Origin: Candidatus Segetimicrobium genomatis
Lineage (GTDB): Bacteria > Sysuimicrobiota > Sysuimicrobiia > Sysuimicrobiales > Kaftiobacteriaceae
DNA: 32,313 nt
Assembly (NCBI GenBank): GCA_005882295.1
Contig: VBAI01000072.1
Coordinates: 1 to 32,313, forward strand
Direction of reading: 5' to 3'
Below the pieces are notes generated by a model. It saw only the letters and a list, made by a program, of their open reading frames with translations, was not told the DNA's origin and ran no database searches. How positions within the stretch are numbered: position 1 is the first letter of the stretch; each line of letters opens with the position of its first letter. Positions 5,961-32,313 of this stretch are shown here, piece by piece. The position numbers and the translations under genes were made by a program.

Positions 5961-7004
5961 TTAGGAAATGTCGGCCAGCGCTGAGGCGGCGCGCTGCAGC
6001 AGCGCGTCCGGCGATTCATCCTGTTCGGCGCTGCCGACGACGCTCAGGCGCATGGGCAGCGGCGACACCGTGGTCTGCCGCAGCTCTCGTTGCGCCACAC
6101 GGACCACGCGGTCGACGATGATCGAGGCCTTCTCCCGGTCGAGGCCGGCGAACAGCAGGCCAAATCGCCGCCCGCCCAAATTTGCCGCAAGATCGCAAGT
6201 GCGCATCGCCGCCGCGACATGGTGGGTCAGCGCCCCGACGACCGCGGCGCGTTCGGGTCCCGCAGCGATGTCCACCTCCAGCAGCGCCACGGCGAACTCG
6301 GTGGTGTGCTGGCGGGTCCGCTGCAACTCCTCCTCCAGGCGGGCCGTGAAGTGATGGCTGTTGCTGAGTCCGGTCTCGCCATCCTGATAGACCAGTTCGC
6401 GCAGCCGTTCCTCCCGGCGGAGTTTCGAGAGAGTCTGTGCCAGTGACTCCGCCAGCCGGCCCAGCCGCTCGAACTCGCCCTCGGTGAAGGTGCGGTCCGT
6501 GCGGGCGAGGGCCAGGACGCCGGCGACGATGCCCTGCTGCACAAGGGGAAAGGCCAGGAATGCGCGCAGCGCCGCGTCGCCAAACGGTGAACGGTGTCCG
6601 TTGGATCCGGGATCGGGGATCACCACCGGCCGGCCTTCCTGCGCCACCCAGGCGGAGAGCCCTGAGCCGCGGGCGAACCGGATCCGGTCGGCCAGCTCCA
6701 CGCGGTTCCCGCGAACCGCCACAGGCAGGAGCCGCCCGCTGGTCCATTCAGTGACGTACAGGGTGCCGTGTTCAAAGGAAAGAGTCCGGTGAACCAGATC
6801 GAGGTAGCGGGTGTAGGCCAGCCGCAGCGGCAACTGCTCGTCGGCGAGCTTCACGCACTCCAGCCGCAGCGCCATCTCCTCCGCCTCCGTGGCGAGGCCC
6901 TGGCCGTTGCGGGGCGCTGACTCACCACCGGCACTACCGGAGTCGGGCGCGTACGCGGGTGCCCGTTCAGGCTGAGACCGACTGCGTCGACTGCGTTGCG
7001 CCAT
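5961..7004 (-). CDS. GAF-domain protein with degenerate GGDEF domain (GGRRF)
   Basis: GAF region ARGSGLSAWVAQEGRPVVIPD...; GGDEF-like region LVYQDGETGLSNSHHFTARLEEEL...LGGRRFGLLFAGLDREKA. Start ATG 7004 preferred because the sigma-54 promoter at 7064-7079 puts the start site near 7052. Confidence 0.75.
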   Translation of the reverse strand: MAQRSRRSRSQPERAPAYAPDSGSAGGESAPRNGQGLATEAEEMALRLECVKLADEQLPLRLAYTRYLDLVHRTLSFEHGTLYVTEWTSGRLLPVAVRGNRVELADRIRFARGSGLSAWVAQEGRPVVIPDPGSNGHRSPFGDAALRAFLAFPLVQQGIVAGVLALARTDRTFTEGEFERLGRLAESLAQTLSKLRREERLRELVYQDGETGLSNSHHFTARLEEELQRTRQHTTEFAVALLEVDIAAGPERAAVVGALTHHVAAAMRTCDLAANLGGRRFGLLFAGLDREKASIIVDRVVRVAQRELRQTTVSPLPMRLSVVGSAEQDESPDALLQRAASALADIS

Positions 7005-7240: not shown

Positions 7241-8608
7241 TTATTTCGCTTCCGCCAGCGGACCCCGGGCCGTCGACGGCGGGACGTTCATCTCTTCGCG
7301 GTACTTCGTCACGGTGCGGCGGGCGATCTTCGTGCCCTCGGCCGTCAGCAGGCGGGCCATCTGCTCGTCGGTGAGCGGGTCTGTCTCCGCGGCGATGAGC
7401 GCGCGGATCCGCTCTTTCACGGGCAGCGATTGATCGAAGAAGAGCTCGAAACTCACCACACGGCCGCTGGGGAGCTGTGCGAACTTGCCGTCCAGCGCGC
7501 GGCTAACCGTGGACTCGCTGATGCCGAGCTCCGCAGCGATCATGGCCTTGGTCAGCGGCTTCATGTGCGCCTCACCGCGCTGGATGAACTCCCACTGCGT
7601 CTGCACGATGGTCTTCACGATGCTGGCGAACGTCCAGTTGCGGCGCGCCAGGACCTCGATGAACAACTTGGCGCGGCCGACGTAGTCGCGGACGTGATCA
7701 CGGGACTTGTCAGAATAGCCGGAGGCGGCGCGGCGCATCTGCCGCCGCAAATCACCGTAAAAGGCGTTGACGCGGAGCGCGAAGGCATCCTGCCGGCACA
7801 GCTCCACGGCGAAGCCTTCCTCGGTCTGGCGGATGATGACATCGGGGCGCGCCACTTCGGCCGGGCGGACCGCCCCGCCGTCCTGCTCGCTGCGGTACCG
7901 CTCACCCGGATAGGGGTAGCAATTGGCCTTCACGAACTCGTGCGCATCTTTGACCTCGGGGATGGTCACCCCGAGATCCTTGGCTACTTTCTCAAACCGC
8001 CGCGCGGCCAGGTCCGGCAGATGGGTCTCCACCAGCCGCTGGGCCAGCCGGTTCGCGGCGCCTGGCTCCATCACCCGGAGTTGCAAGAGCAGACACTCTT
8101 CCACGTTGCGCGCGCCGACGCCGACGGGCTCGAAGCGCTGGATGCGAGCCAGGACCGCCTCGACCTCTTCGACCTCGGCGTTCAGCTCCTGGGCCACCTG
8201 CACCGCGGTGGCTTCCATGTACCCGTTGTCGTTGATGTAGCCGATGAGCCGTTCACCGATGGCGTGGTCGCGGGCGGAGAGCCCCTGCGCCTGCAGCGTC
8301 ATCAGCAGGTGCTCCTGCAGCGACACCGGCGCCGCCATGCGGGCGAAGGGATCGAACTCCTCGTCGTCAGGCGTCCAGTTCGTCAGCGACTGCCCGCCTT
8401 CGTCACCCGACCAGTCGGCGTCCGCAGAGGCGGGCACCTCGTCCAGTTCCAGAGCAGGGTTCTCGGAAAGCTCCTGCTCAATGCGGGCCAGCAACTGATG
8501 GAGGGGCAGGACCAGGAGCGCATTCACCATCATCAGCTTGGGCACCATGCGCTGGTGCAGCTGCGGGTTGACGCCGAGTGATGCGTGAATGCGCGGATCC
8601 ATCGACAT
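7241..8608 (-). CDS. rpoN: RNA polymerase sigma-54 factor
   Basis: Full-length RpoN: region I, core-binding domain, HTH (MIAAELGISESTVSRAL) and RpoN box ARRTVTKYRE. Confidence 0.95.
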   Translation of the reverse strand: MSMDPRIHASLGVNPQLHQRMVPKLMMVNALLVLPLHQLLARIEQELSENPALELDEVPASADADWSGDEGGQSLTNWTPDDEEFDPFARMAAPVSLQEHLLMTLQAQGLSARDHAIGERLIGYINDNGYMEATAVQVAQELNAEVEEVEAVLARIQRFEPVGVGARNVEECLLLQLRVMEPGAANRLAQRLVETHLPDLAARRFEKVAKDLGVTIPEVKDAHEFVKANCYPYPGERYRSEQDGGAVRPAEVARPDVIIRQTEEGFAVELCRQDAFALRVNAFYGDLRRQMRRAASGYSDKSRDHVRDYVGRAKLFIEVLARRNWTFASIVKTIVQTQWEFIQRGEAHMKPLTKAMIAAELGISESTVSRALDGKFAQLPSGRVVSFELFFDQSLPVKERIRALIAAETDPLTDEQMARLLTAEGTKIARRTVTKYREEMNVPPSTARGPLAEAK

Positions 8609-8623: not shown

Positions 8624-10132
8624 TCAGGCCGTCTCCGGCACGCCGACGGCCTCGTCGTCCATCCCAAGGGGGCGCAGGTCGCCGGCCTGCAGGCAGGCCA
8701 GCAGGGCGCCGATCACCTGCGGGTCGAACTGCGTCCCCCGCCCTCGTTCCAGTTCTGCCAGCGCCTTCGGCACCGGCATGGCCGGCCGGTAATAACGCGG
8801 GCTGGTCATGCTCTCCAATGCATCAACGCCGGCGATGATGCGCGCCTCAACGGGGATCTGATCGCCCCGCAGTCCCATCGGGTACCCCGAGCCGTCGAAC
8901 CACTCATGGTGAAACATCACCGCCTCCACGACGCGCGGCGGGAAGTCGGCCATGGCCAGAATCTTCGCCCCCATCAGAGTGTGCGTCTTCATGCCATCAT
9001 ATTCCTCAGCGGTGAGGTGTCCAGGCTTTCGCAGGACTCCGTCTCCAATGCCGATCTTGCCGATGTCATGGAGCAGGGCGGCCGTCTTCAAATCCTCGAG
9101 GCGATCGGCACTCAGCCCCATCCGGGAGCCGATCGCTAGCGCGTACGTGACCGCCCGGTTGGAGTGTTCGCGCGTAGGATGGTCGCGCAGGTCGACGGTC
9201 GCGGCCAGCGCGTAGACGGTGTTCCAATACGACCGGCGTAGCTGTTGGGACAACCGGATCTTCTCGATCTCGCTCGAGCCCTGGGCCGCGATCACCCGCA
9301 ACACGTCGCGGTCGGAGCCTCCGAACGCCGTCGTGGACCGCAGCGCGGTGACGACGCCCACGACGCGGCCTCCGAACTGCAGCGGGACCGACAGCATCCG
9401 ACCCTCGTCGTCGGCTGTCGCTTCCGCCAGGCCGTCGGCTCTGAACAGGTCCTCCGGGGCCACCCTCCACGACGCCGAGCTCTTAGCTGCCGAATGCCTG
9501 GCCCCATCCGCCTGGCCGGTCGTAGTCACGGTCCCGGCATCGCCCGTCGCGGATGTCGTCACCATCAGCTCCTGTCCATCGTCGTCCAGCGTGACGAGGG
9601 TTACGCGCTCGGCGTTCAGTTCGTGCAGCACGGCCTCGGTGATAATCTGAAACACTCGGCCCTGATCCACGTCTCCCAGCCGGTTGCTGTGGAGATCCAG
9701 CAGGGGCTGCAGCGCCCGCAGGCGGGTGTTGCGCTTGAAGTACAGCCCTTTGCGCAGGCCCTCCTCGACGGTCTTGCGCAGGTCGTCAGGCGTAAACGGC
9801 TTCATCAAGAACCCGTTCACGCCGAGCTTCACGGTTTCCAGCAAGTTGTCAAACTCGCTGAACCCGGTCATGACCACGACGGAGACGTCGGGCGCCTCCG
9901 CCACGATCTGCCGGGCTGCCTCCAGCCCGGTCATGCCTGGCATGCGGATATCGGTGAGCAGGAGATCCGGAGTCTGCGCGCGGGCCATGCTGATCGCCGT
10001 GGGGCCGTCGGGAGCAGGGCTGACCTCATAGGTCCGGCCGAGAATGCGGACGCACAGCTCCCGGATGGACGTTTCATCGTCAACGACCAAGATTCTGGCT
10101 TTGGGGAGCACCATGGACTCCTTGTCGTTCAT
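8624..10132 (-). CDS. Response regulator with REC + GAF + HD-GYP (putative c-di-GMP phosphodiesterase)
   Basis: ARILVVDDETSIRELC...LLTDIRMPG; REHSNRAVTYALAIG...LLHDIGKIGIGDGVLRKPG...HHEWFDGSGYPMGLRGDQIPVEARII. Confidence 0.92.
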   Translation of the reverse strand: MNDKESMVLPKARILVVDDETSIRELCVRILGRTYEVSPAPDGPTAISMARAQTPDLLLTDIRMPGMTGLEAARQIVAEAPDVSVVVMTGFSEFDNLLETVKLGVNGFLMKPFTPDDLRKTVEEGLRKGLYFKRNTRLRALQPLLDLHSNRLGDVDQGRVFQIITEAVLHELNAERVTLVTLDDDGQELMVTTSATGDAGTVTTTGQADGARHSAAKSSASWRVAPEDLFRADGLAEATADDEGRMLSVPLQFGGRVVGVVTALRSTTAFGGSDRDVLRVIAAQGSSEIEKIRLSQQLRRSYWNTVYALAATVDLRDHPTREHSNRAVTYALAIGSRMGLSADRLEDLKTAALLHDIGKIGIGDGVLRKPGHLTAEEYDGMKTHTLMGAKILAMADFPPRVVEAVMFHHEWFDGSGYPMGLRGDQIPVEARIIAGVDALESMTSPRYYRPAMPVPKALAELERGRGTQFDPQVIGALLACLQAGDLRPLGMDDEAVGVPETA

Positions 10133-10185
10133 GCCGCGCGTGCAACCTCGCGTCCCATGCGGCTTCTCGCGTACCGCTCTGCTAG

Positions 10186-10201
10186 AGCAAGTTTCATGCC
10201 G
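10186..10201 (-). promoter_or_regulatory. Sigma-54 promoter upstream of the HD-GYP gene
   Basis: Minus strand CGGCATG-AAAC-TTGCT, about 50 nt upstream of the ATG at 10132. Confidence 0.6.
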
Positions 10202-10222
10202 AACACATGTCTACCCGGTCGG

Positions 10223-11581
10223 TTAGCCGGTTTCCGCCGAAATATTATGTTCCTGGATTTTCGCGTGAAGCGCCGCGCGGTCGATCCCCAGCACCTTCGC
10301 GGCCTCATCCAAGTTCCAGGCCGTCATCTTCAAGACGGCATTGATGTGCCGGCGTTCAGCGTCGCCCAGCGAGAACGCCTTGGGAAACTTCGCTCCCGGG
10401 GACGGCTGTTCGTCCAGCCAGATCTCCTCGGCGTCGATGAGTTCCCCGGTGGCCAGGATGACGACCCGCTGCACGGTGTACTCCAGCTCCCGAACGTTCC
10501 CCGGCCACTGGTGGCTGCGCAGCCGTTTCATCGCCGCGGGGGTGAAGCCTTTGATCCGCTTGCCGAACGCCACCGCGTACTTGTTGACGAAGTGGTAGGC
10601 CAGCACCTGAATGTCCTCTTTGCGGTCGCGCAGCGCCGGCAACTCCAGCGGCATGACGGCCAGCCGGTAGTAGAGGTCCTCGCGGAACCGGCCGTCGGCG
10701 ATGGCCTTCTTCAGATCTTTGTTCGTCGCCGCCACGACGCGGGCGTTGACATCGATGGGCTTGTTGCCGCCCACCCGCTCGATGACCCGCTCCTGCAACA
10801 CGCGCAGCAGCTTGACCTGCATCGAGAGGCTCATGTCGGCGATCTCGTCCAGAAAGATCGTGCCGTCCTGGCCGCGCTCAAACCGGCCCACGTGGCTGGT
10901 GATGGCGCTGGTGAACGCGCCCTTCTCATGGCCGAAGAGTTCCGTCTCCAGCAGCGTCTCGGGAATGGCTCCGCAGTTGACCACCACGAATGGGCCGTTG
11001 GCGCGAGGGCTCTGGAAATGGATCGAGCGGGCCAGCAGTTCCTTGCCCGTCCCCGTCTCCCCGTAGATCAGCACGGTGGCGTCGGTCGGGGCGACCGCGG
11101 CGGCGAGCCGCAAGACGTCGCGCATTTTCGGAGATTCCCCGACGATCCCCTCGAATTTGAAGGTGCGCATCAGTTCCTGCTGCAGCGCCCGGTTCTCTTG
11201 CATCAGGCGGCTGCGTTCCAGCGCCTGGTTCACCACGATCATCAACTCTTCGGGCCGGAACGGTTTGCCGACATAATGGTAGGCGCCAAGCTTGATCGCC
11301 TGGATCGCGGTGTCGATCGTGGAGAACGCGGTGATGATGATGACCAGAGCGTCGGGGTTGAATTCCTTGATCGATCGCAGCACACTCATCCCGTCGAGCT
11401 TGGGCAGCTTGAGGTCCAGGAGCACGAGTTGGTAGCGACCGGCCTTGTACTTGGCCAGCCCTTCTTCGCCGTCGGCGGCAGTCTCCACCGCATAGCCGTC
11501 CTCGCGAAGAATCTTGGTCAGCAAATTCCGCAGATTCTCCTCGTCGTCGACCACGAGGATGGACGTACCGTCGGTGACCAT
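10223..11581 (-). CDS. NtrC-family sigma-54-dependent response regulator (REC-AAA+-Fis HTH) with GAFTSA loop
   Basis: [21 protein letters not shown]...[15 protein letters not shown]...[20 protein letters not shown]...[11 protein letters not shown]...C-terminal [19 protein letters not shown]. Confidence 0.93.
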
Positions 11582-11678
11582 CAGCACTCTCTTCTTGGGC
11601 CGAAATGGGGGTCCTGCGAAATCATGCCTCTGTGGCGCGGAGGTTAGACGCGCCGCAAGCGCGCCCGAGTGCACCACC

Positions 11679-13229: not shown

Positions 13230-15527
13230 ATGAAGAACCTCTCAACGCCAGCCCGCGTCTACGTCCTAGGGGTCATCATCGCCGGCGGCATCCTGGCGGC
13301 CCTTGTGCCGCAGCTTCCGGGTGCTGCCCCGCGGCTGGATCTGCCATTTGCGGTCTTCGTCGCGGCGGCGCTGCTGACGCAGCTGGTCGGCGTCCGGGTG
13401 ATCATGCCCGGCCGGGAGGGCATCGCCTGGTCGCTGATCAACGCGGTAATCGTCGCCACCGTATTGCTCTTCCCCGCCGGCAACAGCATCCTGCTCGTCC
13501 TCATCACCTTTACCGCCTACGGGTTCAAGCGCCGCGAACTGCCCTGGTACCAGGGGGCGTTCAACGTGGCGCAGCATGTGCTGTCGGTCAGCCTGGCTGA
13601 GACGTTGTGGGCGATCGCGCGGCCGGAAAGCCTGGTCGGCGCAATGGCGGTGCAGTGGTACGCGGCGGCGTTCTCTGCCGGCGTCGTGTTCTACGTCGCC
13701 AACGGCGCCCTGGTCACGCTGGCCATCACCCTGGTGGCCGGCAAGCCGTTCCGGCAGGTCGGCGTGATCTCACGGTCCAGCTTCTACCGCGAGATGGTCC
13801 TGATCTGGCTTGGCGCCGCGGTGGCCGACTTCTGGATCGTGAACCCGTGGCGCACGGTGCTGCTGACCCTTCCGCTGGTGGGACTGTCCCAGATGCTGCG
13901 CTTGCAGATCGAGGACGCGGAGCGCATCCGCCGCAGCCAGCAGGAGGCGGAGGGCCGCGCCCAGCAGCTGGCCAGCTTGAACGAGCTGGCCCGGGCCCTG
14001 ACCAGCAGTCTGGAGCTGGAACAGGTTTGTGACGCGCTCTATGCCCAGATCCGCAAGGTCGTGCCGGCCGACGCCTTCGGCGCCGGCGTGTACGAACCAC
14101 ACGCCGACCTGATCAGGTTCAGCGTGTGGCGGACGGAGGACGAAACGTTCCCGGCGTTCACCCGCAACGCATCCGAGCCGATCTTCCGGCGCGTCCTGCA
14201 GGCCCGGACGCCGCTGGCGCTCGAACAGGGGCGCGATCATGAAGACATCGCCCAGCTCAGCCAGTACGGCCGGCTTCCTCGCGACGCGATGGTGGTCGCG
14301 ATTCCGATGACCGTTGGCGATCGCGCCGTGGGCATGATCATCGTCGGCACACGCCGGGCGCTCACCCCGCAGGAGATGGACCTGCTCTCTACCATGGCCA
14401 GCCAGACGGCCGTGGCCATGGAGAAGGCCCAGCTCTTCGACCGGGAGCGCCGGAAGAGCGCGCAGCTGAGTGCCATCACACAGGTCAGCAAGAAGATCGT
14501 CACGATCCACAGCGTGGACGTGCTGCTGCAGCAAACCTCGCGCCTGATTGAGGAAACATTTGCCTTCGAACGCGTGCAGGTGCTGCTGGCGGATGAGGCG
14601 GAGACCGCGCAGGCCGACCCCGCGGCGACCGACATCCCTGTCCTCTACCGCGGGGAGTCCATCGGCGACCTGCGGGTGTGGCTGCGTCCGGGCACCGGAT
14701 TTTCTCCGGATGACCTCTCGATGCTGCAGACGCTGGCGGACGAGATCGCCGTGGCCATCGAGAATGCGCGCCTCTATGAAAACCTGCAACGCCAGATGGC
14801 CATGCTGGAGCAAACGCAGTTCCAGCTCATGCAGTCGGCCAAGCTGGCCACGATTGGCGAACTGGCCGCGTTCGTCGCCCACGAGATCAACAACCCGTTG
14901 ACCAGCGTCCTGGGTTACGCCTCGCTGATCCTGAGCGAAACGCCCCCAGACGACAGCAAGCGGGGCGACCTGGAGGTCATTGAGAAGGAGGCGTTGCGAG
15001 CGCGCGCCATCGTGCGAGATCTGCTGGGCTACGCGCGGCAGACCGACTCCGCGATGGAACAGACGCGCATCAACGAGGCGCTGGAGAGCGTCCTGCCGCT
15101 GATCCGCCGCCGCGCCGAGGCGCAGCATGTCAGCATCACCGCGAACTTCGATCCATCGGTCCCCCCGATCCTGGGGGATGTCAACCAGCTCAAGCAGGTC
15201 TTCATCAACATTCTGAACAATGCGATCGACGCCATGCCCACGGGCGGCGTCGTGGAGGTCAGCACGCGAGAGGTCAGAGGGAACGGCACCGGGCCGCAGG
15301 TGGAGATCGCATTCCAGGATGGCGGCGTGGGGATTCCCGAGGACAAGCTCGAACGTATTTTTGACCCCTTCTTCACGACGAAGGAGGACGGCAAAGGCAC
15401 CGGGCTTGGGCTCCCGATCAGCAAACGCATCGTGGAGCGCCACGGCGGATCCATTTCGGTGAAGAGCGTCGTTGGGGCAGGGACCCGGTTCACAGTCGCG
15501 CTCCCGGTCGCGGTCACCTATTCATGA
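13230..15527 (+). CDS. Membrane histidine kinase: multi-TM N-terminus, two GAF-like regions, HisKA, HATPase
   Basis: N-terminal multi-TM region, GAF segments, FVAHEINNPLTSVLGYASL H-box, NQLKQVFINILNNAIDAM, GGVGIPEDKLERIFDPFFTTKEDGKGTGLGLPIS. Confidence 0.92.
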   Translation: MKNLSTPARVYVLGVIIAGGILAALVPQLPGAAPRLDLPFAVFVAAALLTQLVGVRVIMPGREGIAWSLINAVIVATVLLFPAGNSILLVLITFTAYGFKRRELPWYQGAFNVAQHVLSVSLAETLWAIARPESLVGAMAVQWYAAAFSAGVVFYVANGALVTLAITLVAGKPFRQVGVISRSSFYREMVLIWLGAAVADFWIVNPWRTVLLTLPLVGLSQMLRLQIEDAERIRRSQQEAEGRAQQLASLNELARALTSSLELEQVCDALYAQIRKVVPADAFGAGVYEPHADLIRFSVWRTEDETFPAFTRNASEPIFRRVLQARTPLALEQGRDHEDIAQLSQYGRLPRDAMVVAIPMTVGDRAVGMIIVGTRRALTPQEMDLLSTMASQTAVAMEKAQLFDRERRKSAQLSAITQVSKKIVTIHSVDVLLQQTSRLIEETFAFERVQVLLADEAETAQADPAATDIPVLYRGESIGDLRVWLRPGTGFSPDDLSMLQTLADEIAVAIENARLYENLQRQMAMLEQTQFQLMQSAKLATIGELAAFVAHEINNPLTSVLGYASLILSETPPDDSKRGDLEVIEKEALRARAIVRDLLGYARQTDSAMEQTRINEALESVLPLIRRRAEAQHVSITANFDPSVPPILGDVNQLKQVFINILNNAIDAMPTGGVVEVSTREVRGNGTGPQVEIAFQDGGVGIPEDKLERIFDPFFTTKEDGKGTGLGLPISKRIVERHGGSISVKSVVGAGTRFTVALPVAVTYS

Positions 15528-24126: not shown

Positions 24127-24593
24127 GTCGTCACCTGCCTTCGTGTTCGTTGCATGTGGACCGTGGTGCCGTCGGGCCGTGGCGTCACCGTCACATGGCG
24201 CATCAGTTCCTCGATCAGCCGCAGACCGCGGCCGCGGTTCATCCCGCGCGGCGGGCGCCAACGTCCCCAGTCGCGCACGGTCATTTCCACCTCATGCTCG
24301 GTCATGTGGCCGCGAACTTCGACGTCGCCATCTGCGGCTCCATAGGCGTGCTCGATCACGTTGCTGCACGCTTCGCAGCAGGCCACCAGGATCTCATAGG
24401 CATCCTCGTCGTTCGTCTGCGCCGCCTCCATCCACCGGCGCAACGTATGCCGCAGCATCGGCAGCGACGAGGGCACCGCCGGGAGCCGGACATGGAACCG
24501 GGTCGGGTCGGGGATTTCCGCACGCAGGGCCAGGAGCGCGATGTCGTCCCCGCCGGGACGACCGCGGGTCACCTCGCCCAGCACGCGGTCCAC
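24123..24593 (-). CDS. C-terminal part of SpoIIE phosphatase fused to RsbW-like HATPase; separated from 24569..26170 by a frame change
   Basis: N-terminus VDRVLGEVTRGRPGGDDIALLALR is a typical PP2C C-terminus; then ILVACCEACSNVIEHAYG...VRDWGRWRPPRGMNRGRGLRLIEELM. Confidence 0.75.
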   Translation of the reverse strand: MDRVLGEVTRGRPGGDDIALLALRAEIPDPTRFHVRLPAVPSSLPMLRHTLRRWMEAAQTNDEDAYEILVACCEACSNVIEHAYGAADGDVEVRGHMTEHEVEMTVRDWGRWRPPRGMNRGRGLRLIEELMRHVTVTPRPDGTTVHMQRTRRQVTT

Positions 24594-26170
24594 CAGCTCG
24601 TCCAGATCCTCATTGGGATCTGCGGCGGCGGCGCGATGCAGAGTCCGTCAGTGTAGAGGAGGAGTGTACTGCCGGGCCATAGCTGCGCTGATTGCTCATG
24701 GTACGACGGCATCCGCAGCGCCCCCAGCGGCGGCGCCCCACCCTCCAGGTACGCCGCGCGGCCGTCAGGGGCCACGGCCAGCGGCGGGGGGTGGCCGGCG
24801 TTGGTGAAACGCACCGTCTGGGTGGCCGGATCGAAGATGAGGTAGACCAGCGTCGCCATCTCCCCCGGCTCGATCAACATGGCCAGCCGCTGCACCACCT
24901 CGGCAGGGCTGTATCCTTCCACCGCGTACGCCCGTAGGGCGCTGCGGAGCTCGGCCATCAAGGCGGCCACGCGCACACCCCGCCCGGCGACGTCACCCAT
25001 GACCAGCCCGACCGTGCCACGCGGCAGCACGAAGAGATCGTACCAGTCGCCGCCCACCGCCTCCGGGCTCGCCGCCAGATACCGGGCGGCGGAGGCGAGG
25101 CCGGGAATCGGCGGAAGGCGTTGCGGCAGCAGGCTGCGCTGCAGCGTTTCGGCGATGCGCCGCTCCTGCTCGTACAACCGGGCGTTATCGATCGCCAGCG
25201 CCGCCCGGCGCGCCAGTTCCTCCACCAGGGCCAGGTCGTCGCGCGTGTACTGGCGGTTGGACTCGGCGGTGAGAAACGCGATGACACCCAGCGTGCGGCC
25301 GCGCGCCACGAGCGGGACAATGATCAGCGAGACCGAGCCCAGCGTGCGAGCCACACTGAGCTCCTCGGTGTGGGGCCCCAATCCGCGGGCCCATTCCTCA
25401 GAAATCTCCGGCACGAGTAACGCCTGGCCGGTCCGCAGCACCGTGGCCGTGGGCTCGGAGACGACCGCGTTGAATGGATACCGCTCCAACAGCTTGCGCA
25501 GCCGCTGTTCTTTGGCAGGATCCGAATGCACAACTTCCACGCGGCGCACCTGACCGTCGGATTCGGCCAGGAAGGTCATACACATGTCGGCGAGCCGCGG
25601 GACCGCCAGCCGCGCGATGCTCTTCAGCGTGGCCTCAGAATCCAGCGAGGCGGTGAGGATGCGGCTGGCATCGGCCAGGAACTGCAGTTCGCGGGTGCGC
25701 TCCTGGATGGTCCGTTCCAGATCGCTGGCGTGCCGCTCCAGCGTGTGCTGCTGGTCATCCAGCTGGCGCTTGTACTGCCTGGCCTGCATGGCCCGGATGA
25801 GCGAGGCCACAAAGTACTCGCGGTCAATAGGCTTCTGGATGAAGTCGTAGGCGCCGCCGCGCAACGCCTGCACGGCCAGATCGTGCTCGCCGTGCCCGGT
25901 GATCAGCAGCGTCGGCGTGTCCGGCCGCAAGGCCTTGATCTGCGCCAGCAGGGCCAAGCCGTCGGTCCCGGGCATCTTGATGTCCGTGACGATAGCCTCG
26001 TAGTCGACCTCTGTGATGCGCTGCAGCGCCCGCTCCGCGGAGTCGCAGGTCTCCACGTTCACCTCCTCCATCCGCAGCCGCAACGCCTCCGGCAGCGCCT
26101 GCAGCAGCACGGGGTCGTCGTCGACCAGGAGGATCAGTTTTGTGGAGACCCGTTCAGGAGCCACGATCAT
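24569..26170 (-). CDS. REC-GAF-SpoIIE (PP2C) phosphatase, prematurely terminated
   Basis: REC (LLVDDDPVLLQAL...IVTDIKMPG), GAF, PP2C (GGDWYDLFVLPRGTVGLVMGDVAGRG...GSTLLLYTDGL) then non-homologous tail CIAPPPQIPMRIWTSWWTACWAR*. Confidence 0.85.
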   Translation of the reverse strand: MIVAPERVSTKLILLVDDDPVLLQALPEALRLRMEEVNVETCDSAERALQRITEVDYEAIVTDIKMPGTDGLALLAQIKALRPDTPTLLITGHGEHDLAVQALRGGAYDFIQKPIDREYFVASLIRAMQARQYKRQLDDQQHTLERHASDLERTIQERTRELQFLADASRILTASLDSEATLKSIARLAVPRLADMCMTFLAESDGQVRRVEVVHSDPAKEQRLRKLLERYPFNAVVSEPTATVLRTGQALLVPEISEEWARGLGPHTEELSVARTLGSVSLIIVPLVARGRTLGVIAFLTAESNRQYTRDDLALVEELARRAALAIDNARLYEQERRIAETLQRSLLPQRLPPIPGLASAARYLAASPEAVGGDWYDLFVLPRGTVGLVMGDVAGRGVRVAALMAELRSALRAYAVEGYSPAEVVQRLAMLIEPGEMATLVYLIFDPATQTVRFTNAGHPPPLAVAPDGRAAYLEGGAPPLGALRMPSYHEQSAQLWPGSTLLLYTDGLCIAPPPQIPMRIWTSWWTACWAR

Positions 26171-28508: not shown

Positions 28509-28760
28509 CGCGGGATCCCCCTTTTCCCATCGCCGGAAGAGAATCCGGCGTCAGACCGGCGCCAAGATCAATAAATTTTTCCCCCCAGACACTGGGGGTT
28601 AACCCTCCAAGCGGACATGAAAAAGCCCTGGCGGGACGTCTTCCTAACTCGCGGCCATTGAACTGCTGTTTGTAGGTAATTCGAGGGATGCGAGAGAGGG
28701 AAAGACCCGATACGATTGGTCACGAGCCGCCTTCGAGACGACTCAAAAGGCTTGCGGAAC

Positions 28761-28858
28761 GACCCCATCCGATAAAGGCAAACCCGTCGTGAGGCGGGGA
28801 CGCAAAGCCGCGGGTCAGGTGGGAAACCTGACAGCCGGGCTGCCGAAGAAGGGGAAGT
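28761..28858 (+). promoter_or_regulatory. Cyclic di-GMP-I (GEMM-I) riboswitch aptamer 1
   Basis: GACCCCATCCGATAAAGGCAAACCCGTCGTGAGGCGGGGACGCAAAGCCGCGGGTCAGGTGGGAAACCTGACAGCCGGGCTGCCGAAGAAGGGG: conserved GGCAAACC, GGACGCAAAGCC, AGCCGGGCTGCCGA. Confidence 0.93.
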
Positions 28859-28866
28859 TCGGACTT

Positions 28867-28894
28867 GGCGGTCTTCCGCACCGAGGAGACCGCC
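28867..28894 (+). promoter_or_regulatory. Shine-Dalgarno-sequestering hairpin (riboswitch 1 expression platform)
   Basis: GGCGGTCT TCCGCACCGAGG AGACCGCC immediately before ATG 28895; the purine-rich GAGGAG lies in the 3' arm. Confidence 0.7.
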
Positions 28895-31570
28895 ATGTTT
28901 TGTGTTCGAGCATCTGGTATTCGCCGGTGCGTGCCTGCCGTGCTGATTCTGGTGATGGCTGCGGCGACGGTGTCTATCCCCGCGCCCGCCGTCGTCCGGG
29001 CCGCCACCCTCCCCGAACTCCCCCGCGTGTACCTCGACACCACTGTGATCCCGCCCACCGGACGCATTCTCACCGTCCCCGCCGGCGGTGATGTGCAGGG
29101 TGCGCTGAATGCAGCCCAATCGGGCGATGTCGTCGAACTGCAGGCCGGCGCGGCATTCCTCGGATCCTTCTCGCTGCCCCGCCGCACCGGGTGGGTGACC
29201 GTGCGCTCCTCAGCGTGGGCCAGCCTCCCCCCGCCCGGGACCCGCGCCACCCCTGCTCACGCGCCCCTCATGGCCAAGCTCGACGGCGGGGGAAGTGTCG
29301 TCCTGCAGGGTGGGTCGCATGTCCGCCTGATTGGCCTGGAGCTCACCAGCGCCACCACCGGCAGCATCGTGGAGCTGGGAGGCGCGGACAACATCGTCGT
29401 GGATCGATCCTGGATTCACGGCACTCCCACGGGCGACGTCCGGCATGGGATCCAGGCGAACGGCAGCAGGATTGCGGTTGTGGATTCTGCCATCACCGAC
29501 ATCCATCACCGCAGCGCCGACGCGCAGGCCATCGACGCCTACGATGGGTGGGGACCCTTCAAAATCGTGAATAACTACCTCCAGGCCTCCGGGGAGAACG
29601 TCCTCTTCGGCGGCTGGGATCCCAGCACGTCGGGGCTGGTGGCCTCCGACATCGAGGTCAGGGGCAACTACTTCACCAAGCCCCTGTCCTGGAAGGCCGA
29701 CGATCCCTCCTATGCGGGCACCCGCTGGGTGGTCAAAAACCTCTTCGAGCTCAAGAACGCGCAGCGCGTCGTGATCGATGGCAACATCTTTGAGTACAAC
29801 TGGACTCAGGCGGATCAGGGCGGCTTCGCGATCCTCTTCACCCCCCGCAATCAGACCGGAGCCGCCCCCTGGTCCACAGTGCAGGACGTCACCTTCATCC
29901 ACAACATCGTGCGGCACTCCACCGCCGGCGTCCAACTCATGGGCTGGGACAACCTCTACCCCAGCCAGCAACTCCAACGTGTCCTTATCCAGCACAATCT
30001 CTTTCTCAACATCGGCGAGTTCCCCGATTCGGTGTATGGGGTCTACACGGGTATGCTCTTTAACGTCTGGGATGGACCCGCCGACCTGACCATCGACCAT
30101 AACACGACCTTCCAGACTGCGCTTCCTCTCTACGCCATGACCCATATCGCCAGTTATTGGCCGGGCACTGGATTCCGGTATACCAACAGCATCACCAACA
30201 GCGCCGCCGGCAACTGGACCACGTGGTTGAATACCTACTTCCCCGGCGCGGTCTTTACCAACGATGCGATGATCGGGGGTACGGCGGGGAGCTACCCGGC
30301 AGGCAACTTTTTCCCGGCCTCGCTCGATTCGGTCGGCTTCGCCAACCTCGCCGGGGGGGACTACCACCTCGCCCCCACGAGCCCCTACAAGAACGCCGCT
30401 ACCGACGGCAAAGATCCCGGCGCCGATATCGATGCCTTGACGGCGGCCACGGCCAGCGCCCTCAGCGGGGGTGGAACCGGGGGCGGCCCTGCTCCCTCCC
30501 CAGTCTCAGTCTCCCCAAGTAACGTCGCTTTCGGTCTAGTGACGGTAGGCACGACCAGCCCGGCGGCGGATATTCAGGCTTTCAATCCCAGCGCGGCCGG
30601 GGTGACGCTCAGCAGCGTCGCCATTACCGGCCCGTTCGTGATCACCCAGAACCATTGCCTGGCGACGAACACCTGGAACGGCGTCATCCCTCCAGGCACA
30701 CACTGCGACATGTTCGTGGTCTTTGCCCCGGCGGTGGGCGGCGCGGCGACCGGCAGGCTGAACATCAGCGTGGCGGGCAGCGTGTATCCGGTGATGCTGT
30801 CCGGCACAGGCGCGGCTGCGGCGGACACCACGCCGCCGTCAATCCCATCCGGCCTGACCGCCACCGTCATCAGTTCCTCGCAGATCACCCTGGCCTGGTC
30901 GCCGTCGACCGACAATGTGGCGGTCTCCGGGTACAACGTCTTCAGAAATGGCACCCTCATCGGGATCGTCAGAAGCACGACTGGCTATCAGGATGCGGGA
31001 CTGTCGGCAGCGACGACCTATGGCTACATGGTGGCAGCGTTTGATGCGGCCGGCAATACATCGGCACCGTCGTCGCCGGCATCGGCCACCACCACGCCGG
31101 CGGGGAGTCGGTCGCCCTATGGAGGGGCGCCCTGGGCCATACCTGGGGTGGTCCAGGCCGAGAACTTCGACGTCGGAGGGGAGGGTGTCGCGTACCATGA
31201 CACCACGCCGGGTAACCAGGGCGGGCAATACCGCATGGATGTCGACGTCGATATCATTGCCGACAACGGCCGCTACGTTATCAATAACTTCCAGACTGGG
31301 GAATGGCTGGAGTATACAATCAACGTCACGGCGACGGGAGTATATCGGATCGAGGTGCTGGTCAGCAGCCAGTTCAGTGCAAGCCGGTTTCGCATGGCGC
31401 TCGACGGACAGAACGTGACTGGCTCGCTATCTGTTCCGAATACGGGGAGTTGGCACACCTTCCAATGGGTGGGGGCGAGCGGGGTGGGGCTGACGATGGG
31501 TCTGCACGTCCTGCGGGTCTATGCGGACCAGCAGTACTTCAACCTCGATGCCATCCGCATCAGAAAATGA
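28895..31570 (+). CDS. Large secreted protein: parallel beta-helix, ASPM/SPD-2/Hydin-like domain, FN3, C-terminal CBM6-like domain
   Basis: Signal peptide; beta-helix repeats (RVVIDGNIFEYN, VLIQHNLFLNI); SPSNVAFGLVTVGTTSPAADIQAFNPS; FN3 DTTPPSIPSGLTATVISSSQITLAWSPSTDNVAVSGYNVFRNG; CBM6 AENFDVGGEGVAYHDTTPGNQGGQYRMDVDVDI...NLDAIRIRK. Confidence 0.88.
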   Translation: MFCVRASGIRRCVPAVLILVMAAATVSIPAPAVVRAATLPELPRVYLDTTVIPPTGRILTVPAGGDVQGALNAAQSGDVVELQAGAAFLGSFSLPRRTGWVTVRSSAWASLPPPGTRATPAHAPLMAKLDGGGSVVLQGGSHVRLIGLELTSATTGSIVELGGADNIVVDRSWIHGTPTGDVRHGIQANGSRIAVVDSAITDIHHRSADAQAIDAYDGWGPFKIVNNYLQASGENVLFGGWDPSTSGLVASDIEVRGNYFTKPLSWKADDPSYAGTRWVVKNLFELKNAQRVVIDGNIFEYNWTQADQGGFAILFTPRNQTGAAPWSTVQDVTFIHNIVRHSTAGVQLMGWDNLYPSQQLQRVLIQHNLFLNIGEFPDSVYGVYTGMLFNVWDGPADLTIDHNTTFQTALPLYAMTHIASYWPGTGFRYTNSITNSAAGNWTTWLNTYFPGAVFTNDAMIGGTAGSYPAGNFFPASLDSVGFANLAGGDYHLAPTSPYKNAATDGKDPGADIDALTAATASALSGGGTGGGPAPSPVSVSPSNVAFGLVTVGTTSPAADIQAFNPSAAGVTLSSVAITGPFVITQNHCLATNTWNGVIPPGTHCDMFVVFAPAVGGAATGRLNISVAGSVYPVMLSGTGAAAADTTPPSIPSGLTATVISSSQITLAWSPSTDNVAVSGYNVFRNGTLIGIVRSTTGYQDAGLSAATTYGYMVAAFDAAGNTSAPSSPASATTTPAGSRSPYGGAPWAIPGVVQAENFDVGGEGVAYHDTTPGNQGGQYRMDVDVDIIADNGRYVINNFQTGEWLEYTINVTATGVYRIEVLVSSQFSASRFRMALDGQNVTGSLSVPNTGSWHTFQWVGASGVGLTMGLHVLRVYADQQYFNLDAIRIRK

Positions 31571-31817
31571 CACCGCAGAAAAACCGGCGCTGACGAGGGA
31601 GGGTTATCCCCCAGGCAGCATACCAAACGCGTGTGCGGTTCGTAAGCATCCGCGTCGCTAATTTGAGCGAGATAAGAGAGAAGATCGCCCGTATAGCGAA
31701 CAACCGCTTCCCTTGACGTAAAGTAAGCCCCGTGGTCCAATATAGGAGAAACCCTTAAATATCGGCTGGAATTCACCTTACTTGAATCGTGAAGTTTCAG
31801 CTAGCATACCGCGGATA

Positions 31818-31913
31818 GACCCCATCCGATAAAGGCACCCCGCCTGTGAAGGCGGTCCGCAAAGCCACGGGTCAGGTGATGAACCTGACAGCCGGGCTGC
31901 CGAAGAAGGGGAT
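31818..31913 (+). promoter_or_regulatory. Cyclic di-GMP-I (GEMM-I) riboswitch aptamer 2
   Basis: GACCCCATCCGATAAAGGCACCCCGCCTGTGAAGGCGGTCCGCAAAGCCACGGGTCAGGTGATGAACCTGACAGCCGGGCTGCCGAAGAAGGGG. Confidence 0.92.
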
Positions 31914-31923
31914 ATTCGGAGCT

Positions 31924-31951
31924 GGCGGTCTTCCGCACCGGGGAGACCGCC
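31924..31951 (+). promoter_or_regulatory. Shine-Dalgarno-sequestering hairpin (riboswitch 2 expression platform)
   Basis: GGCGGTCT TCCGCACCGGGG AGACCGCC immediately before ATG 31952; same as copy 1 apart from the loop. Confidence 0.7.
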
Positions 31952-32313
31952 ATGTTTGTTGCTGGCCAAGCCATACGCGTCCGCACGCTACCCGCGCTGT
32001 TGATCGTCGCGGTCGCGATGCTTTCGCGGCCCGCTCTCCTGCCCGCGGCGAACGCTTCCGTGCTTCCGGAGCGTCCACGCGTCATTCTCGATACGACCTA
32101 CGTCCCCCCGACGGGCCGGACGCTGGCGGTGCCTGCCGGCGGCGATCTCCAGGCGGCCCTGAATGCCGCCGTCGGAGGGGATGTCATCACCCTGCAGGCC
32201 GGGGCGACGTTCTCGGGCCCGTTCACGCTTCCCAACAAGAGCGGCACCGGGTGGATCATCGTGCGCACCAGTGCCGCGGATAGCACCCTCCCGCCGCCGG
32301 GGACCCGCATTAC
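31952..32313 (+). CDS. Secreted beta-helix protein, paralogue of 28895..31570; truncated by right window edge
   Basis: MFVAGQAIRVRTLPALLIVAVAMLSRPALLPAANASVLPERPRVILDTTYVPPTGRTLAVPAGGDLQAALNAAVGGDVITLQAGATFSGPFTLPNKSGTGWIIVRTSAADSTLPPPGTRI. Confidence 0.85.
   Translation, partial: MFVAGQAIRVRTLPALLIVAVAMLSRPALLPAANASVLPERPRVILDTTYVPPTGRTLAVPAGGDLQAALNAAVGGDVITLQAGATFSGPFTLPNKSGTGWIIVRTSAADSTLPPPGTRI

Follow-up and report, generated by a model that had tools for sequence, protein, structure and literature searches.

Introduction

Among riboswitches of the c-di-GMP-I (GEMM-I) class, the Vc2 aptamer contacts its ligand, cyclic diguanosine monophosphate (c-di-GMP), through G20, A47, and C92 (PMC4744006), and translational platforms of the sequester/anti-sequester type have been mentioned in general terms (PMC11218506). 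Here, we describe two copies of a c-di-GMP-I aptamer on the plus strand of a 32,313-nucleotide stretch from "Candidatus Segetimicrobium genomatis" (contig VBAI01000072.1; hereafter, the window), which makes up the whole of one contig (C137) in a draft genome totaling 2.86 Mb and whose right edge is, accordingly, the contig end. Each copy leads into a hairpin whose stem encloses the Shine-Dalgarno (SD) sequence of a gene for a secreted protein, and each includes, just upstream of the aptamer, a strand that is complementary to the 5′ arm of that hairpin. On balance, we favor the view that each copy is a c-di-GMP-I riboswitch that controls translation by three-strand exchange. A literature search found no paper naming both Rokubacteria and riboswitches; the genome's named relative from the protein search, QHTB01000120, belongs to a "Candidatus Rokuibacteriota" genome.

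Aptamers and predicted ligand

The aptamers occupy positions 28768-28848 (copy 1) and 31825-31905 (copy 2) on the plus strand. Both had been claimed as GEMM-I aptamers in an initial annotation made from the sequence alone, and covariance models bear this out: copy 1 scores 77.6 bits with RF01051 and 75.7 bits with RF03167, and copy 2 scores 64.9 and 63.4 bits, all four values exceeding the Rfam gathering cut-offs (35 bits for RF01051 and 59 bits for RF03167). The wider limits first given to them (28761-28858 and 31818-31913) take in the outer pairs of helix P1, CCCC/GGGG. Under Rfam clan competition, the best label for both copies is RF03167 (c-di-GMP-I-GGC), while the RF01051 bit score is slightly the higher of the two in each case. 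The c-di-GMP-I-GGC variant is ruled out as their identity: its consensus reads GACGC-G-AAGCC, and we read the G at the A47 position as the origin of the variant's name, whereas in the two copies, GACGC or UCCGC leads into A-AAGCC, giving an A at that position.

At the positions equivalent to the Vc2 contacts, both copies are canonical according to their sequence and the Rfam alignment (G20, A47, and C92 at 28777, 28804, and 28843 in copy 1 and at 31834, 31861, and 31900 in copy 2). GEMM-I variants of the cyclic GMP-AMP (cGAMP) type have an A at position 20, where both copies carry G, as the initial annotation had noted in favoring c-di-GMP over cGAMP. Because the three contacts are canonical, c-di-GMP is the likely ligand and our best guess from the sequence. 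The interhelical pair corresponding to C44 and G83 of Vc2 is also kept (C in GACGC/UCCGC and G in CAGCC), as are GUGA tetraloops (of the GNRA type) in both copies. Copy 2 has an odd internal loop in P2, ACC/UCC instead of AAA/GAC, and a loop survey of the order returned one further case similar to it.

RF01051 matches are present in all 43 genomes of the order. Among the 136 order-wide GEMM-I aptamers, three (G033:C250:672-751, G012:C375:8251-8366, and G013:C4:10785-10874; L100, L148, and L049) have AGAGC in place of GGC and, apparently, share with cGAMP-type variants an A at position 20. Tandem pairs of GEMM-I aptamers also occur upstream of a single gene, at G019:C4:11974-12163 (L016 and L051) and G013:C93:6086-6407 (L050).

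SD-sequestering hairpins and a predicted upstream antisequestor

Downstream of each aptamer lies a hairpin of 11 to 12 bp (28867-28894 in copy 1 and 31924-31951 in copy 2, both plus strand) that directly adjoins the ATG (at 28895 and 31952) and holds the SD sequence (GAGGAG at 28883-28888 and GGGGAG at 31940-31945) in the loop-proximal part of its stem. The minimum free energies are -20.1 kcal/mol (z-score, -5.0) for copy 1 and -24.6 kcal/mol (z-score, -5.9) for copy 2, with none of 200 shuffled sequences being as stable, and z-scores range from -2.4 to -6.7 across nine sequences. The description of these hairpins as nearly identical, abutting the start codon, and carrying the ribosome-binding site in the stem is, therefore, accurate: they agree at 27 of 28 positions. 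At this 96% identity, they are better conserved than any other element of the cassette: the aptamers reach 86%, the start of the coding region (first 360 bases) 65%, and the 100 bp preceding the aptamers, which are unalignable, 49%. Near-exact versions of its sequence occur at four places in the 43 genomes, each just 3′ of an aptamer: two are in the window, and two are in a tandem array of three modules in the sister genome G020. U-rich first codons follow both hairpins, and terminator-like scoring was obtained at window positions 28866-28905 and 31923-31962.

In the initial annotation, burial of the SD sequence in these hairpins was read as translational control. The burial stands, but the cost of opening the SD sequence is little changed by P1 (10.2 kcal/mol with P1 forced versus 7.3 kcal/mol with P1 forbidden in the sequence labeled w1, and 13.8 versus 13.8 kcal/mol in w2), such that the hairpin alone is insufficient to show ligand control; what had been overlooked is an antisequestor strand upstream of the aptamer.

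In copy 1, this strand A (GCGGAACGACCCCATCCGA, 28754-28772) consists of an upstream extension plus the P1 5′ strand and, as the putative switching strand, is complementary to 28858-28879. Strand B (CCGAAGAAGGGG, 28843-28854) is the P1 3′ strand, which pairs with CCCC.UCCG of strand A; strand C (TTCGGACTTGGCGGTCTTCCGC, 28858-28879) joins the 3′ part of the linker to the 5′ arm of the SD hairpin and can pair with strand A or with strand D (28885-28894) of the hairpin. The corresponding strands of copy 2 are A (GCGGATAGACCCCATCCGA, 31811-31829, complementary to 31915-31936), B (31900-31911, placed by sequence and folding), and C (TTCGGAGCTGGCGGTCTTCCGC, 31915-31936, placed by duplex ranking and the covariation table), all features of both copies being on the plus strand. 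The A:C duplex of copy 1 comprises 21 pairs, 17 of which were tabulated across relatives, and has an energy of -28.7 to -30.2 kcal/mol (p<0.004 against shuffles); that of copy 2 reaches -27.9 to -28.1 kcal/mol, and most class members fall between -25 and -31 kcal/mol. An equal A:C design (-28.6 kcal/mol) precedes an exopolysaccharide operon on contig C115 of the same genome.

When the 135 aptamer loci of the order were ranked by A:C complementarity, with shuffled A strands as the reference, the 11 loci with the strongest upstream/downstream match included nine of the SD-hairpin class. The pairing is lineage specific: among seven representatives, the assignment of each strand A to its own strand C gives the lowest total, ranking first of 5040 assignments. 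Two-sided covariation is seen at 6 of the 17 homologous A:C pairs (seven sequences, from f1 and f4 genomes), as scored in a pair table compiled manually from the predicted duplexes, the only check on which was that the pairs could be read from the sequences. The inner pairs, p1 to p5, which involve the UCCG in the 5′ strand of P1, covary, and of the seven tabulated sequences, six or all seven retain them. By its specificity and covariation, then, an alternative pairing that joins the aptamer to the SD hairpin is present in the form of the A:C antisequestor.

A different element, a hairpin between the P1 3′ strand and the linker (CCGAA..UUCGG), was considered as a general anti-P1 structure and rejected, as UUCGG is not clearly enriched (23 versus 17 and 20 of 109 for words of equal composition). 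By eye, the P1 3′ strand appears complementary to the hairpin arm (GAAGA/UCUUC) in most members; both are constrained by the purine-rich P1 and SD strands.

Proposed mechanism and alternatives

The A:C duplex shares nucleotides with both P1 (A:B) and the SD hairpin (C:D); hence, it is mutually exclusive with each of them, and those two helices occur together. In the proposed exchange, strand A would pair with either B or C, and strand C with either A or D. With c-di-GMP bound, A:B would be locked and C would be freed to pair with D, burying the SD sequence and preventing synthesis of the secreted protein (OFF); with the ligand absent, A:C would form after C has been transcribed and before D emerges, and the SD sequence would stay open (ON).

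State energies, computed for 10 sequences by folding with penalties, are compatible with such an order of events. When the transcript stops after strand C, A:C is more stable than P1 in all 10 (by 3.8 to 11.8 kcal/mol); at full length, the advantage of P1 plus the hairpin over A:C runs from -0.6 to +8.3 kcal/mol (near balance in some members), which is, in these models, a range where ligand and timing can decide. Because equilibrium folding favors the OFF state in most members, we infer that control is probably cotranscriptional, i.e., kinetic; a simple equilibrium switch does not fit the modeled energies.

Several points weigh against this exchange. The OFF state is favored at equilibrium even without ligand in most members (by 5.8 kcal/mol in w1 and 8.3 kcal/mol in w2), such that the gene would always be off if folding equilibrates. 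One class member, g20c, is weak in the A:C ranking (p=0.18), a relative designated AR17 is without strand A, and the permutation and covariation tests draw on few, partly related lineages and on a hand-made table. The presence of strand A in the RNA is assumed, and a promoter scan found no sigma-70 site. Lastly, the model has c-di-GMP repressing matrix-like proteins, which runs counter to the usual physiology.

The common physiology, in which c-di-GMP activates matrix proteins, would be matched by an ON switch, whereby A:C stacks outside a partly formed P1 and ligand-bound P1 joins A and C, freeing the SD sequence. The outer part of A:C (GCGGAA.GACC) does flank P1 directly, in a nested arrangement. 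We nevertheless consider an ON switch unlikely: the well-kept, covarying inner pairs occupy the P1 5′ strand and are incompatible with P1, and the outer P1 pairs, CCCC/GGGG, compete with A:C as well.

Control could also be transcriptional, with the hairpin and the U-rich first codons forming an intrinsic terminator that overlaps the start codon. Both hairpins are called terminator-like (with the tails TGTTTTGTGT and TGTTTGTTGC), and a simple criterion finds terminator-like platforms at 32 of the 136 order-wide aptamers. However, g20b, g20c, g29a/b, g30a, and g31 possess the hairpin and A:C with no U-rich tail, and burial of the SD sequence is common to all members, which makes a terminator quite improbable. 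It is comparably hard to credit that the aptamer is uncoupled and the SD hairpin a translation brake, either constitutive or otherwise controlled (by a protein, a helicase, or temperature), given that, although the SD-opening cost is nearly independent of P1, the covarying strand A is complementary to the hairpin arm and the hairpin sequence is confined to sites 3′ of aptamers.

Probable duplication and recurrence of the cassette

It had initially been proposed that the whole regulatory-coding unit was duplicated. This fits the pair in the window, but the upstream DNA is unalignable, copy 2 is cut, and in G020 the cassette stands before a nonhomologous family. That sister genome has three tandem aptamer-hairpin-gene modules (C39:56454, 58965, and 61962, within 56454-64421; L044), the targets of which form a secreted family with Big_7, FN3-like, and LamG domains that is unrelated to the beta-helix proteins of the window; the cassette is, therefore, separable from the coding part. 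Divergent hairpins of the same layout precede beta-helix homologues in three further genomes of the order (G029, G030, and G031). On the other contigs of the genome studied here, we found no further aptamer with this hairpin type and a beta-helix gene. In the AR17 relative (L014:2718-2894), the SD hairpin precedes a mini-open reading frame of 58 codons, possibly a leader peptide or a broken N terminus, and the beta-helix gene begins ~80 bases past its stop.

From these occurrences, we tentatively raise the broader possibility of a lineage-specific, transferable c-di-GMP OFF cassette under kinetic control that may have been copied, in Rokubacteria, before at least two unrelated families of large, secreted, carbohydrate-binding proteins and an exopolysaccharide operon, in which case high c-di-GMP would repress part of the matrix program.

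Encoded proteins and genome context

Copy 1 precedes the gene for a secreted, beta-helix-type protein of 891 amino acids (28895-31570, plus strand), and copy 2 precedes that for a paralogue that is cut by the contig end (31952-32313, plus strand); the two are 70% identical over the 79 residues compared. The paralogy, along with the FN3 and CBM6 domains of copy 1 (fn3, 8.5e-8; CBM_6, 1.5e-16; both above the Pfam cut-off), agrees with the initial annotation, whereas the beta-helix and HYDIN-like assignments correspond to Beta_helix and choice-of-anchor-D (ASH/HYDIN-like) matches that fall below the cut-off. The N terminus of copy 1 has a signal-peptide-like start and a conserved domain (12 sequences; mean column identity, 66%), and the family profile gives a weak match to the alginate lyase 6kfn (E=3e-4); these secreted proteins may bind or modify polysaccharides. 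A single-sequence AlphaFold2 model of the beta-helix domain was not used, its predicted local distance difference test score being 35.5. Two further beta-helix paralogues in the genome (G000:C90:1424-2857 and 8804-10252) have no aptamer upstream.

The genome contains five aptamers in total: two in the window and one each on contigs C115, C47, and C7. The C115 aptamer precedes a secreted protein, followed by the LuxR-type, NusG-type, and Wza/Wzc-like genes of the exopolysaccharide operon; the C47 aptamer precedes a sigma factor and PilB-like genes; and the C7 aptamer precedes a small secreted protein, with an HD-GYP-like gene nearby (genes lacking a Pfam call were named from their translations). 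The 10 GGDEF matches in the genome point to a capacity to make c-di-GMP. Within the window, the HD-GYP protein noted at the outset is an HD_5 response regulator (8624-10132, minus strand), and for the supposed degenerate GGDEF protein, a profile match is present (5973-6230, minus strand) but weak. Signaling genes are otherwise abundant on the contig, including a GAF histidine kinase (13230-15527), a sigma-54 activator (10223-11677), RpoN (7241-8608), and a response regulator with GAF and SpoIIE phosphatase domains (24569-26170).

Comparison with described c-di-GMP-I platforms

The cassette supplies a testable, sequence-level account of how c-di-GMP could act in an uncultured lineage of soil bacteria. 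It suggests that the switching strand of a GEMM riboswitch can be located 5′ of the aptamer while covarying with the arm of an SD hairpin; searches for aptamers alone, like simple folding, miss this pattern. Should the predicted direction hold, c-di-GMP represses part of the secreted matrix program, contrary to the usual expectation.

Relative to aptamers of RF01051, such as Vc2, the two copies have the same fold, ligand contacts, GUGA tetraloop, and presumed C44/G83 equivalents, and they occupy the same kind of site ahead of secreted or surface genes; they differ in the P2 loop of copy 2 and in the upstream extension of the P1 5′ strand, which would serve as the switching strand. With RF03167, they share scores above the gathering cut-off and the best label by clan competition but not the nucleotide at the A47 position. 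As in the sequester/anti-sequester platforms, ligand-dependent burial of the SD sequence by a hairpin that competes with an antisequestor is predicted here; the difference is the position of the 5′ strand of the antisequestor, which precedes the aptamer and incorporates the P1 5′ strand, a topology of which a narrow literature search found no described example.

Closer to home are platforms with the SD sequence in P1 (G000:C7, G020:C56, G021:C177, and G013:C93), which share with the cassette its aptamer class, its genomes, and the P1 5′ strand as the switching strand. In these, however, the SD sequence lies within the P1 3′ strand, and there is no separate SD hairpin; they have a perfect upstream anti-P1 hairpin (GGATGAGG..CCTCATCC) and precede a small secreted protein (L013 8249-8774 minus, L045, L047, and L050). 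Judged by its sequence, the platform of C7 and its orthologues looks like an OFF switch as well. Overall, the riboswitch class in the window is a known one, and its platform is specific to the lineage. Neither the sensor nor the general principle is new; the novelty lies in the upstream, covarying antisequestor and in its spread, as part of a cassette, before unrelated secreted genes.

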